A program made the position numbers and the translations under genes. A stretch of DNA of 64,000 nucleotides, taken from assembly GCA_041228335.1 (NCBI GenBank), contig CP166130.1, positions 1,884,638 through 1,948,637 of the forward strand, written 5' to 3'. This DNA comes from Alphaproteobacteria bacterium LSUCC0684 (lineage in GTDB: Bacteria; Pseudomonadota; Alphaproteobacteria; Puniceispirillales; UBA1172). Under the pieces are notes generated by a model. That model was not told the DNA's origin and ran no database searches. It saw only the letters and a list, made by a program, of their open reading frames with translations. Positions 37,995 through 62,954 of the stretch are shown here, piece after piece (the stretch's first letter is position 1; every line of letters starts with the position of its first letter).

Positions 37995-39145
37995 GCGTCT
38001 GTTTTACGCCGTTTTTTGGATTTCGACAATCGAGCAGACATGTGAGGTGCAGATGCCTCAAGCACATGCGCGATTTCGGGCATGACCTCATCGGGCAGAA
38101 TGTCATTGATACTGCCGGGGATATCAAGCCTCGCTCTATCCGCCGGAAGAACCGTCCGGATCAGCGGCGAGTCCAGCACCGAAAGCGTACTGGCAAAGAT
38201 CCGCACCGCGGGCGTCCCCGCGGCGGCAGCGATATTGATCAGGCTGGTATCATTGCCGACATAGAGCCTCGCGGCAGCATGGAGCGCAATCACCGTGTCA
38301 ATCTTCTGGTCAAAAACCATCATGGGTGAAGGGGTTGCGGAAGATAACGCGGCGCAAATTTCATCGCCGATACCGGCTTCGGCCGGACTGCCGCAGAGCG
38401 CAAAACTGTAGCCGGGATATCGCCGGGCAAGCTTGTCCAGAAGGGCGGCGAAATGAAGCGGCGACCAGCGGCGGGGGGCATCCGCCGCGCCAACGCCGAA
38501 AATGATCAGCGGCCCCGCCCCTTCAAGAATCCGGGAAGCCCGGGCGATGGCGGCATCGACAGGGACGATCCGGGGATGCGTATCTGTCAGCACCATGCCT
38601 TGTTCAGCAAAAAATGCCGACGCCGACGCCCGGGGATGTGCGCCCCGAAACGAGTCGTCAAGGCCCTCACCCTTATTGAGAAACCAGCGCTGCTTGCCCA
38701 GACCATACCCGGACCGTTCGGGGATTCCGGCAAGCCAGGCCGCGGCGCCATAACGCCAGCTGCGGTGCAGAATCCAGACGGCATCGGCCCGGGTTGACCG
38801 CAAGGCCAGCACCAGCCGGAAAAACCCGATCACGCCATCATGCCGGCCTTTGCGGCCACGTTCGGACCGGAGCAGCGGAAAAATCTCAAGCCCCGCATGT
38901 TCCGCCAGCACCATTCCAGCCTGCGATGACGGTTTGGCCATCAGCATCACTTTCCCGGGAAGGCGGGTGATGGCGGCATCAAGCCAGGGCTTGTGCCAGA
39001 CCATGTCACCAATCCCCACCATGGGCTGAAGGATAAGAAGACGGGGTGATTGACCTGCGGAAGATCGCCTGAAAAAAAGACGGGCGGGCGCAAACAGCAA
39101 CGAAAACCAATGTGATACTTGAAACAAACGCATCAAAAACTGCAA
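37991..39145 (-). CDS. Glycosyltransferase family 9 (heptosyltransferase-like)
   Basis: The 384 residues have a GT-B fold. The N-terminal LLILQPMVGIGDMVWHKPWL is the nucleotide-proximal GDM(V) motif of GT9, and the C-terminal RLYVGNDTSLINIAAAAGTPAVRIF is the sugar-nucleotide binding region (GNDTSLIN...AAAGTP). A basic tail (SKSKKRRKT) follows. GT9 enzymes add heptose or related sugars to the LPS inner core. It is translationally coupled to the MsbA-like gene and lies in an LPS neighbourhood, which supports core-sugar transfer. The exact sugar is unknown. Confidence 0.87.
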   Translation of the reverse strand: MQFLMRLFQVSHWFSLLFAPARLFFRRSSAGQSPRLLILQPMVGIGDMVWHKPWLDAAITRLPGKVMLMAKPSSQAGMVLAEHAGLEIFPLLRSERGRKGRHDGVIGFFRLVLALRSTRADAVWILHRSWRYGAAAWLAGIPERSGYGLGKQRWFLNKGEGLDDSFRGAHPRASASAFFAEQGMVLTDTHPRIVPVDAAIARASRILEGAGPLIIFGVGAADAPRRWSPLHFAALLDKLARRYPGYSFALCGSPAEAGIGDEICAALSSATPSPMMVFDQKIDTVIALHAAARLYVGNDTSLINIAAAAGTPAVRIFASTLSVLDSPLIRTVLPADRARLDIPGSINDILPDEVMPEIAHVLEASAPHMSARLSKSKKRRKTDA

Positions 39146-39226
39146 AAACTGAATTAAACCTGATCAGACGTGATAGATACCCTATTCCATTTTTACCCTG
39201 AGGGGGACTATTCTTTGGTCATGTGT

Positions 39227-40006
39227 TCATGCGCTTCCTCCATGAGCCAGCCGCGCCTTGATGCGGGAGACATAACCCGGGAAGCAAAGTCGCTTTCGCA
39301 TCGAGTCGCTGGCCCGGATGAAACGTCGGGAGATCCGGTGCCGGATCCGGTCATCGGGCCAGAGGGGGACATTTGAATATCCGATGGTTGAGGTCCTTCC
39401 ATCTTCGGCAAAAAGAGGCGGCAGGAGGTGAAGGACCTGACGGTCATGGTGCCACCAGTGATGTATCAGGAAATCCACTTCCGTGCTGAAGCGGTGGGGA
39501 TGATCAAGAAAAGTCCGGGCGGCTTCTTTCGTGATAAAATAGCTTTCCAGACCAAAATCGTTATACCGCATGGCATACAATCCCGCATCCCCGGCCATAT
39601 CCTTCACCTTGACACGTTTGAGGTTTTCGCGCCGGTTTGAGAGGATGACCACATCGAGCTGATCGGCCATCTCCACCACCCCCCTAATGCGAGGCATGAT
39701 ATCGTCTTGTATCGGCCCGGCATCATCTTCGAAAATGAACGCGAAGGGCGCATCACCGGCCAGAAGCGCTTCCCATGCCTTGAAATGGCTGAGCGTACAT
39801 CCCATCGCATTATCCTGCATCATCGAGGCGGTGATATATTGACGCCCGGAATTCAGAAAGGGTGATTTTTCGGCGTCGCTTAAGGTTGATCCCCGCACGG
39901 CGTCAATGAAGACAGGATCAAAGCCTATGCCAAGAAACCTCTCTTTCAACAGGTTGCGGCGGTCGCTGTTCTCTTTGAAACATATGATAAAAGCCTGAAC
40001 ATGCAT
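39227..40006 (-). CDS. Glycosyltransferase family 25 (LPS biosynthesis)
   Basis: The 259 residues match the LPS galactosyltransferase-like GT25 family. They start MHVQAFIICFKENSDRR and show GCTLSHFKAWE (about 68-78), the FIFEDDAGP acidic motif for metal/UDP-sugar, and GLESYFITKEAARTFL. These enzymes transfer hexoses to the outer core or O-antigen. The ATG at 40006 is used; an upstream TTG at 40033 is possible. The upstream spacer (40007-40176) is AT-rich. GT25 genes are often variable between strains. Confidence 0.86.
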   Translation of the reverse strand: MHVQAFIICFKENSDRRNLLKERFLGIGFDPVFIDAVRGSTLSDAEKSPFLNSGRQYITASMMQDNAMGCTLSHFKAWEALLAGDAPFAFIFEDDAGPIQDDIMPRIRGVVEMADQLDVVILSNRRENLKRVKVKDMAGDAGLYAMRYNDFGLESYFITKEAARTFLDHPHRFSTEVDFLIHHWWHHDRQVLHLLPPLFAEDGRTSTIGYSNVPLWPDDRIRHRISRRFIRASDSMRKRLCFPGYVSRIKARLAHGGSA

Positions 40007-40176
40007 GGAGCAAATTATCCATCTCAGCAACAAATAGATTGAAAAATCACTCGTATTTCTGTTTTTCTATCTCATGCGGCCGAAGGCGGCAATTCTTTTC
40101 AAGCTTTGGGGGAATTCGTGCTAGGTTTGCCTGATCCGGGCAGATTACGCCCTGTTTTGGTCGAGCAGGTTCGCTG

Positions 40177-56867: not shown

Positions 56868-57545
56868 ATGGCGGATCAGAAATACACGATCTCTCGCCAG
56901 ACGCTGGAAGATGGCACCATTCAGCAGATGGTGCTTCAACGCGACGGGGACCGTGCCGATATCCTGAACGAAGAGCAGCTCAAATCTTCCCGGCGCAACC
57001 TTGTGGCGGATGACAATAAGGATGATGTGTGGCTGTTCGGATACGGCTCGCTGATCTGGAATCCGGTGGTTGAAATCAAGACGCAAGTTCTGGGGCGGAT
57101 TTACGGCTATCACCGCCGGTTCTGCCTCAAGACACGCATCGGCAGGGGGACACCGGAAAACCCCGGCCTTGTCCTGGGCCTTGCGCGTGGCGGTTCCTGC
57201 ATGGGGGTTGCCCTCTGCATTGACGGTTCCATCGCGGTTCGGGAGCTTGATCTGCTCTGGAAACGGGAGATGCTGAACGCGTCCTATCATCCGAAACGGG
57301 TTCAGGTGCATTGCGGGGCAAAACAGATCAGCGCCATCACCTTTGTGATGAATGAGGAAAGCCCGAGCTATGTTGCCGCCATGCCGCTCGATGAAAAGGC
57401 CCGGATGATCACCAATGCAAGCGGGTTTGTCGGCACCAGCCGCGAATATCTGGAACTGACCTGCGAAAGCCTCGAGGAGCTGGGGATACGTGATCGGTAT
57501 CTTGCCGAGTTATGCGCCATCATCAAGGGCAATACCGGGTCCTGA
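56868..57545 (+). CDS. ChaC-family gamma-glutamylcyclotransferase
   Basis: ChaC-type enzymes cleave glutathione to 5-oxoproline and Cys-Gly in the cytosol. The 225 residues contain the substrate loop FGYGSLIWNP (YGSLIW at 59-64), RRFCLKTRIGRGTPENPGLVLGL and the catalytic Glu134 in LWKREMLNASYHP. A 50-residue N-terminal extension precedes the catalytic domain, as in other proteobacterial homologues. It lies 9 bp after mscS, so the two may be co-transcribed. GshA, at 29-30.5 kb, makes its substrate precursor. Confidence 0.93.
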   Translation: MADQKYTISRQTLEDGTIQQMVLQRDGDRADILNEEQLKSSRRNLVADDNKDDVWLFGYGSLIWNPVVEIKTQVLGRIYGYHRRFCLKTRIGRGTPENPGLVLGLARGGSCMGVALCIDGSIAVRELDLLWKREMLNASYHPKRVQVHCGAKQISAITFVMNEESPSYVAAMPLDEKARMITNASGFVGTSREYLELTCESLEELGIRDRYLAELCAIIKGNTGS

Positions 57546-57603: not shown

Positions 57604-57690
57604 GCGAGTGTGGCGGAATCGGTAGACGCAGTGGACTCAAAATCCACCGATGGCAACATCTTGAGAGTTCGAGTCTCTCCACTCGCACCA
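57604..57690 (+). tRNA. tRNA-Leu (anticodon CAA)
   Basis: The 87-nt class II tRNA has a 7-bp acceptor stem (GCGAGTG with CACTCGC) and an encoded ACCA end. The anticodon loop CTCAAAA gives CAA at 57638-57640, reading UUG. A long variable arm follows, and the T-arm is GAGAG-TTCGAGT-CTCTC. All stems pair. It is followed by an AT-richer accessory-looking segment. Confidence 0.97.
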
Positions 57691-57783
57691 TCTCCAGTTT
57701 TTCTATCTATACTAAAGATAACTAACCGCCATTGTGCTCAAATTTAAAACCGGGCGTGGATCACTTTAACAAATTGCGGCTAT

Positions 57784-58230
57784 CTATTCTTTTCTGATCC
57801 TGTCGATCAACCTGACAACGGCACTGGCAATGGCCATTAATCCGCCTGGCCCTGATTGAATGACCGAAATTAAAATGATGATCAATAATCCCACGGTGAA
57901 ATCGATATTTCCCTGAAGCGCAAGAACAGCAAACAAACCGAGAAGAAAAACAACCCCAACAACTGAAAGTACAATAATCACGTAAGCTTGACGCTCATGA
58001 AATCTCAAGATTGACTCATGACTTCGTGCGGTTTTTTCTTCCGTCATCTTGTTCATGCGTTGCACAAAGCCAGGGTCATGCTTTTCCAGTGCTTCGATCA
58101 GCAAATCTGACCTCTCCTGATATTGAGCAAGAATATTCTGGGTGTTTACATAGATATCCCGCACGGACTGCGCCGGGATATCAGCATTTTCTATGATCTT
58201 TTTGTCAGTTCGATGCTTTGCTTTTGCCAT
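57784..58230 (-). CDS. DUF2335-like two-helix membrane protein
   Basis: The product has about 148 residues. A charged N-terminal half (about 1-83) contains helices rich in Glu, Lys and Gln (ILAQYQERSDLLIEALEKHD, FVQRMNKMTEEKTARS). It is followed by two membrane helices (about 85-105 and 112-135) and a short basic tail. The layout and the DPGFVQRM...EEKTARSHE segment resemble the DUF2335 predicted membrane family, whose function is unknown. Base composition is lower in GC than the neighbours. The start is ATG 58230; the gene overlaps the upstream 73-residue gene by 26 bp. Confidence 0.6.
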   Translation of the reverse strand: MAKAKHRTDKKIIENADIPAQSVRDIYVNTQNILAQYQERSDLLIEALEKHDPGFVQRMNKMTEEKTARSHESILRFHERQAYVIIVLSVVGVVFLLGLFAVLALQGNIDFTVGLLIIILISVIQSGPGGLMAIASAVVRLIDRIRKE

Positions 58231-58426
58231 CAGACGCAACTTTCATTTTCCGAAGAGCGTCTGATTGATTAATGGAATCAAGTAGTGAGATGACAATGGT
58301 GGCAGGCAGCTCATCAATTTGCGAAAGCCATGAATGTTCAGGGCGGATCTTCATGCCCTCCGTGGCCCGCATTGGGTCAAGAGTTACATAGCGTGCATCA
58401 TCAGTCCAGAAGGATTGAATGCCCAT
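58205..58426 (-). CDS. Small protein of unknown function (73 residues)
   Basis: The reading frame starts at ATG 58426, with an AGGGAG site 8 nt upstream, and ends inside the start of the DUF2335-like gene, with which it overlaps by 26 bp. The product starts MGIQSFWTDDARYVTL, contains LPATIVISLLDSINQ and ends in a Lys/Ser-rich tail. No known family was recognised. The good ribosome-binding site and the overlap support a real gene pair. The AT-richer composition and the position by a tRNA suggest acquisition by transfer. Confidence 0.55.
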   Translation of the reverse strand: MGIQSFWTDDARYVTLDPMRATEGMKIRPEHSWLSQIDELPATIVISLLDSINQSDALRKMKVASDGKSKASN

Positions 58427-58692
58427 AACACATGCTCCCTATACTGAGAAATCGTAAAACCGCACAATTCCTCTTTAAGTTTCATTTTTTCCCCAGAAAA
58501 CAAAATGTCAATAAAGAAACGCTATAAGATATATCTGGGGCAGAAATATGGTGACATAAATACACACTCTTTATGGCTAAATCAGGGATACGTCAGATGT
58601 GATCACTTGTTCTAGATTGATTTATGTGACTTTTCTGCTGACTTTACGTATAATTCAACTATTCATGTTCCCAAAAACCGGAGTACCTTTAA
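58427..58692. other. AT-rich spacer between the tRNA-linked cassette and dedA
   Basis: These 266 bp are clearly AT-richer than the rest of the window. They presumably hold promoters for the 73-residue gene (minus) and dedA (plus). A 36-codon frame (58505-58615) starts with MSIKKRYKIY but lacks a ribosome-binding site and is treated as chance. No copy of the tRNA 3' end, which would mark an att site, was found. Confidence 0.5.
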
Positions 58693-59292
58693 GTGAACGA
58701 GCGCCCTGGTCTTTATGATCGAGTTCTCACGGCCATCCCATTTCTGGCACGGCTGCAGGACTGGGTGATCCGGCTGGGAAGCCACCGGGCGGCCCTGCCC
58801 TGGCTGATGGGTCTGTCGTTTCTGGAATCGATCATCTTTCCTGTCCCCATCGATCCCCTTCTCGCCGGCCTTGTGCTGGCGCGCCCGCGTGAATATATCC
58901 GCCTTGGCGTCCTGACGGCGCTGGCCTCGACCCTTGGCGGCGTAGCGGGCTGGGCTATCGGGCTCTGGCTTGGCCAGGCGGTGATCGGGCTTGGCTGGAT
59001 CGGTGAAGAGGGCGCCTTTGCCGAGGTTGCGGCCGCCTTTGCCCGGCATGGCTGGCTGTTGATGCTGGTCGGTGCCTTCACCCCTCTTCCCTATAAAGTG
59101 GTGGTGGTGAGTGCCGGCTTCCTCGGGATCGGGGTCATTCCCCTGATCATCACCTCCCTGATTGGCCGGACCTGCAGATTCGTGCTGATCGCCGCCCTTG
59201 TCCGTTATCGGCAGGATACCGGCAAGGCCATGTCGATCCTTTCCCTTCTGCTTGTTCTTTTTGCCTTCTTCTGGTGGTACATCAAAGCATGA
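58693..59292 (+). CDS. DedA-superfamily (YqaA-like) membrane protein
   Basis: The 199-residue inner-membrane protein has about five hydrophobic segments and the SNARE-associated/VTT-domain features FLESIIFPVPIDPLLAG (E....P.P.D) and GAFTPLPYKVVVVSAGFLG (the conserved F.P.P.K...G block). Members of this superfamily act in lipid scrambling and membrane homeostasis. It starts at GTG 58693, with GGAG 9 nt upstream. Its stop overlaps the dsbB start (ATGA), so the two genes are coupled. Confidence 0.88.
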   Translation: MNERPGLYDRVLTAIPFLARLQDWVIRLGSHRAALPWLMGLSFLESIIFPVPIDPLLAGLVLARPREYIRLGVLTALASTLGGVAGWAIGLWLGQAVIGLGWIGEEGAFAEVAAAFARHGWLLMLVGAFTPLPYKVVVVSAGFLGIGVIPLIITSLIGRTCRFVLIAALVRYRQDTGKAMSILSLLLVLFAFFWWYIKA

Positions 59293-62854: not shown

Positions 62855-62860
62855 ACGCGT

Positions 62861-62926
62861 GTTGCGCCCATATGGCGCACGTTTCCTCCCTAAACTCGGT
62901 CGCGGTTCGCCCGCGGCCTTTTTTTT
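62861..62926 (+). ncRNA. Predicted small RNA with anti-Shine-Dalgarno loop and terminator
   Basis: Three stem-loops lie in about 66 nt. The first is TGCGCC-CATAT-GGCGCA (62863-62879). The second is GTTT-CCTCCCT-AAAC (62881-62895), with CCTCC exposed in the loop. The third is GGTCGCGG-TTCGC-CCGCGGCC (62898-62918, one G-U pair), followed by T8 (62919-62926), a classic intrinsic terminator. A TTGACA -35 lies at the right distance upstream. The 336-bp gap between gluQ and moaA holds no convincing protein gene. A CCUCC loop recalls alphaproteobacterial sRNAs of the 'cuckoo' type, but the assignment is by pattern only. Confidence 0.55.
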
Positions 62927-62954
62927 GCCCCCAGTTTTGTGCCCCCAGTTTTGT
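62927..62954. repeat. Two perfect tandem 14-bp repeats
   Basis: GCCCCCAGTTTTGT occurs at 62927-62940 and again at 62941-62954, with a partial third copy (GCCCCGGG) after it. The array starts directly at the end of the T-run of the terminator. Confidence 0.9.

Follow-up and report, generated by a model that had tools for sequence, protein, structure and literature searches.

An AT-rich two-gene cassette in a probable insertion hotspot between tRNA-Leu(CAA) and dedA of Alphaproteobacteria bacterium LSUCC0684

Bicistronic toxin–antitoxin modules with a membrane toxin exist, and genes of the HEPN type are associated with toxic RNases and with abortive infection. Tycheposons target tRNA, and proteins of the DUF2335 family consist of a soluble helical N-terminus followed by a two-helix hairpin. 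Hotspots adjacent to tRNA genes, with exchangeable and often defensive cargo, are already well known; in the Escherichia coli pan-genome, tRNA loci contain 18 of 41 hotspots, and a median of 8 % is given for occupancy (PMC10121019). At the junction described here, between tRNA-Leu(CAA) and dedA, the inserts are small and the cargo is orphan. Literature searches, made with terms other than the names of the junction genes, returned no paper on this junction.

The window, that is the whole 64 kb stretch of DNA analysed, covers positions 1,884,638–1,948,637 of a one-contig genome of 2,704,644 bases (labelled G000). Directly 3′ of tRNA-Leu(CAA) the GC content of the variable interval (Table 1) is 0.415, against 0.593 for the whole window, and this is the minimum: none of 1260 sliding 1002 bp segments across the 64 kb is as low. 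Values between the tRNA and dedA range from 0.38 to 0.48, and on either side from about 0.50 to 0.67. Likewise, GC3 is 0.42–0.44 for ORF1 and ORF2 and 0.60–0.71 for eight neighbouring genes. The AT-richer cassette of two overlapping minus-strand genes, one encoding 73 residues, which the earlier note had placed after the tRNA, is borne out by these figures. The next-lowest GC stretch of the window, at about 39051–40150, has a GC content of about 0.50. Separately, an Rfam match to the suhB/mmgR sRNA is present at 62857–62933 on the plus strand (41.4 bits against a gathering score of 41).

Table 1. Features of the tRNA-Leu(CAA)–dedA locus, in window coordinates
Feature	Position	Strand	Basis
chaC gene, conserved left flank	56868..57545	+	Family profile; comparison with relatives
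tRNA-Leu(CAA), left border of the probable hotspot; 3′ end intact, unduplicated	57604..57690	+	tRNA scan, copy search
AT-rich variable interval, tRNA to dedA, 1002 bp	57691..58692	no strand	Composition and locus comparison
ORF2, 148 aa (ATG 58230) or 151 aa (TTG 58239), orphan	57784..58239	-	ORF list, model
ORF1, 73 aa small soluble protein (predicted), one relative (G002)	58205..58426	-	ORF list, similarity search
Promoter-like site TTGACA-16-AAAAAT upstream of ORF1	58484..58511	-	Consensus match only
dedA-family gene (VTT domain), conserved right flank	58693..59292	+	Pfam; comparison with relatives

The chaC–tRNA–dedA junction is conserved across relatives, and its comparison bears on the insertion behind the tRNA that the earlier note had proposed. 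Of the 37 relatives in which dedA was matched, the tRNA scan of dedA loci covered 29: 11 from the same family and 18 further genomes of the order. Nine of the family loci were scorable, dedA lying at a contig end in G005 and G007. The site is empty in seven of these nine (G001, G002, G003, G004, G008, G010 and G011), with a short tRNA–dedA spacer in the same orientation, and the spacer is long in the other two (G006 and G009); in G003 it measures 24 bp, compared with 1002 bp in the window. Among the 18 further genomes, 11 have a short spacer in the same orientation, 2 a long one (G027 and G037) and 4 the tRNA on the opposite strand (G026, G028, G034 and G038), and in G033 there is no tRNA-Leu. 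The two long spacers outside the family belong to another genus and hold large ORFs between tRNA-Leu and dedA (L070 2085–4333 and L071 2028–5510), whose products, by eye, resemble surface proteins rich in repeats or RTX-type proteins.

The two occupied sites within the family allow a direct comparison. Between G006 and G009, identity is 94.9 % across 2.9 kb of left flank, which ends 9 nt past the tRNA, and 96.2 % across 2.6 kb of right flank. Both inserts begin 9 nt past the tRNA, yet the 830 bp insert of G006 and the 948 bp insert of G009 are unrelated. Their tRNA–dedA intervals have GC contents of 0.364 and 0.371, respectively, against 0.48 for the enclosing 6.5 kb stretches. Since the two inserts differ, the junction appears to take up varied small cargos. 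Conserved flanks with empty sites in relatives, and differing cargo at one point in close relatives, are the marks of a hotspot, and both were found. Because seven of nine sites are empty, and because unrelated AT-rich cargo lies between flanks of 95–96 % identity in G006 and G009, it is very likely, judging from sequence comparison, that the cassette in the window was horizontally acquired and sits in an insertion hotspot.

Each of the two other inserts carries one ORF. In G006 it encodes 214 aa from the first TTG (L074 2920–3564) and has no Pfam family. Relatives of this protein are found on nine plasmid records from seven genera of distant bacteria, with 28–38 % identity among the eight listed; one lies next to annotated SIR2-family and type I restriction endonuclease genes, and a second one examined is without such neighbours. 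The 241 aa ORF of G009 (L075 3155–3880) carries RNTCAH, an instance of the RNxxxH motif, which we take to be of HEPN type. Its Pfam matches are all below cut-off but mutually consistent (HEPN_RiboL-PSP, E 0.0043; HEPN_MAE_28990, 0.0074; Abi_2, 0.011), and PADLOC gives a weak CARF-HEPN match (0.0018); no match was found in the phage or plasmid collections. These weak, consistent matches suggest that the G009 cargo is HEPN-like.

The 3′ end of the tRNA, searched for in the window with up to three mismatches, gave a single match and no duplicate. Local alignments at the junctions of the window, G006 and G009 were no better than those of shuffled sequences, of which 238, 266 and 162 of 300, respectively, reached the score. 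An att repeat is usual for integrase-driven elements; it is not demanded of every hotspot. The genome has 11 tyrosine-recombinase (PF00589) matches, the nearest about 94 and 140 kb away. None lies in or beside the interval, which therefore does not qualify as an integrase-carrying island, and the earlier statement that neither an integrase nor an att duplication is visible stands. The inserts are too small for an integrase plus cargo. The conserved flanks would probably serve present exchange through homologous recombination, with the first arrival of a cargo perhaps owed to an earlier integrase- or transposase-mediated event.

Both frames of the cassette are intact, and the ATG of ORF2 overlaps ORF1 by 26 nt on the same strand. 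Dinucleotide shuffling of the interval produced a frame of at least 149 codons in 14 of 1000 trials; thus ORF2 is unlikely to be a chance frame. Frames of at least 73 codons arose in 642 of 1000, so the length of ORF1 alone is no proof of a gene. However, a search of 101 genomes revealed a relative of ORF1 in G002, of the same family (33 % identity over residues 6–57, E 1.8e-5 for this one genome). The two proteins share 18 of 56 residues, and the numbers of identical bases at the three codon positions (27/38/18 of 56) are coding-like. The relative and this codon-position pattern support ORF1 as a gene. Upstream, the promoter-like site is one of three found against 1.8 expected by consensus matching. 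An inverted repeat (ATTTTTTCCCCAGA / TCTGGGGCAGAAAT, 36 nt apart, 58484–58547) surrounds this site and is a possible operator.

The G002 relative of ORF1 (59 aa, L003 1492–1671) is flanked by a phosphonate-binding-like gene and a 425 aa gene that is GcvT-like by eye. The 11.6 kb contig contains no ORF of 60–260 aa with two membrane segments, and the relative is therefore solitary. Beyond G000 itself it was the only convincing match in samples of 101, 385 and 136 genomes, although G002 is not among the ORF1 matches in the 385-genome class sample; a genome-contig scan re-found the same relative as JAGWAQ010000040.1. Other matches to ORF1, at E 0.01–0.9, were rejected, as was one in L077 whose frame lies opposite a long ORF. 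The structure model of ORF1 is poor (pLDDT 66.6).

Hydrophobic segments near residues 82–106 and 110–126 of ORF2 are its two predicted membrane helices and agree with the two-helix membrane protein first described. A single-sequence AlphaFold2 model (pLDDT 78, pTM 0.32) places helices at residues 20–51, 55–105, 111–125 and 127–147. As modelled, the protein would be all-helical, with a long helical N-terminal part running into a membrane hairpin, followed by a C-terminal helix. The model has no match at E <1 in the viral structure library or the PDB, and by sequence, too, the PDB offered no match below E 0.2. None of the 100 relatives searched has ORF2, and no homologue of it was found in viral contigs, phages (full tblastn), plasmids, genome contigs (pattern scan) or a class sample of 385 genomes including its own. 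A phylum sample of 299 genomes gave seven weak matches (E 0.0016–0.0098, 27–33 % identity), which were rejected, since they sit in open frames of 274–1329 aa and look like generic membrane or helical stretches. Neither ORF has an over-threshold match in Pfam, PHROGs, NCBIfam or PADLOC, in keeping with the original description of ORF1 as an unknown protein, and PADLOC returned no defence family for either at E up to 1. The best Pfam match of ORF2 is DUF3040 (E 0.0017), whose 19 bits fall short of the cut-off of 24.7.

The lack of relatives raises the possibility that the cassette is the decaying remnant of a larger element, such as a prophage or satellite, behind the tRNA, and that its ORFs are now functionless. 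Prophages and other mobile elements commonly settle at tRNA loci (PMC10121019), and AT-rich spacers, an interval in which no integrase or att remains, and an ORF2 for which no relative was found would all suit such a remnant. However, neither ORF is interrupted, and frames as long as ORF2 are rare in shuffles. In addition, the inserts of G006 and G009 are similarly small and carry intact single genes, which points to a size-limited hotspot rather than to chance decay. Neither ORF has a relative among phages or viral contigs, the full tblastn against phages having been run for ORF2. A decayed remnant is thus rather unlikely, though it is the strongest of the alternatives.

The preferred reading is of a lineage-specific cassette, acquired at the hotspot, that acts as a coupled toxin–antitoxin-like or phage-exclusion module; we give it a probability of roughly 0.4 as a whole. 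ORF1 and ORF2 would share a transcript, and their translation would be coupled. ORF2 would form an inner-membrane hairpin whose long helical domain lies on the cytoplasmic side, and ORF1, small and cytoplasmic, would be the partner that holds it in check or sets it off. Once released, the pair might perturb the membrane. On sequence grounds, the layout fits a membrane effector with a small soluble protein coupled to it, and what the neighbouring genomes carry at this site fits a defence or toxin–antitoxin setting, although none of the family searches bears this out. The earlier suggestion of a toxin–antitoxin or defence role thus has indirect support only: a HEPN-like gene occupies the same site in G009, but the one relative of ORF1 has no membrane partner. 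That solitary gene counts against an obligate pair, an argument resting on a single relative. A defence or toxin–antitoxin function for the pair is put forward tentatively.

The same solitary relative would suit a different role, in which ORF2 is a superinfection-exclusion membrane protein of the phage-conversion type and ORF1 is independent and no antitoxin. ORF2 is indeed a small, predicted membrane hairpin protein, and its match to the moron membrane protein phrog_3996 in PHROGs (E 0.65), while not significant, is of this kind. Against this, the 26 nt overlap suggests coupled expression and there is no phage relative. Superinfection exclusion by ORF2 alone is accordingly considered unlikely. 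It is also conceivable, though decidedly improbable, that the junction is a miniature, integrase-less exchange site of order-wide extent for one- or two-gene defence cargo, and that the pair is a new two-gene family of anti-phage or toxin–antitoxin type in which ORF2 is the membrane-hairpin effector and ORF1 the small regulator.

Alternatively, the pair could be old and native, lost from the relatives, with a low GC content reflecting relaxed or weakly expressed genes. The earlier note had reasoned that a pair present universally, with matched codons, in close relatives would speak against insertion; ORF2 was instead absent from 100 of 100 relatives and GC3 differs from that of the neighbouring genes. 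While an integration scar is indeed lacking, a native origin would need many independent losses, and the site is mostly empty, with other cargo in G006 and G009. This origin is very improbable.

The family label given to ORF2 at the outset found no support. It had been said to resemble DUF2335 (PF10097), and the layouts are alike, a two-helix hairpin after N-terminal soluble helices being visible in the class members examined; ORF2, however, is without a profile match. PF10097 is absent from its Pfam matches at E up to 1, a family search over 142 class genomes found no member in G000, and hhalign of ORF2, as a single-sequence query, against DUF2335 gave a probability of 13.8 over 21 columns. 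The hhalign target comprised five of the six DUF2335 proteins found in the class, L087 having been dropped as an 88 aa frame with no membrane part. DUF2335 membership was rejected as unsupported, and that ORF2 is a diverged DUF2335 or DUF3040 member with an unrelated housekeeping role is scarcely credible, since the similar layout and the sub-threshold DUF3040 score are set against the missing PF10097 match and the low hhalign probability.

If the hotspot reading is true, scanning one short junction across the order would find small cargo genes, some of them likely to be defence genes, with no homology match required. The G006/G009 swap between near-identical genomes is a clean case for the movement of kilobase cargo without an integrase. 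ORF1 and ORF2 would add two orphan protein families as candidates for phage challenge.

Among known systems, the bicistronic membrane-toxin modules resemble the pair in that two small genes overlap and specify a soluble and a membrane-bound product, but ORF1 and ORF2 have no family match and the ORF1 relative is solitary. PICMI (PMC10803314) and tycheposons are likewise small islands of marine bacteria; unlike these, in so far as the sources describe them, the present interval has no integrase, replication or packaging gene. Compared with the E. coli tRNA hotspots (PMC10121019), the inserts are only about 0.8–1.0 kb, with no integrase or att and no cargo proven defensive. The general arrangement is nevertheless shared: a conserved core junction beside a tRNA, mostly empty, at which the cargo varies.
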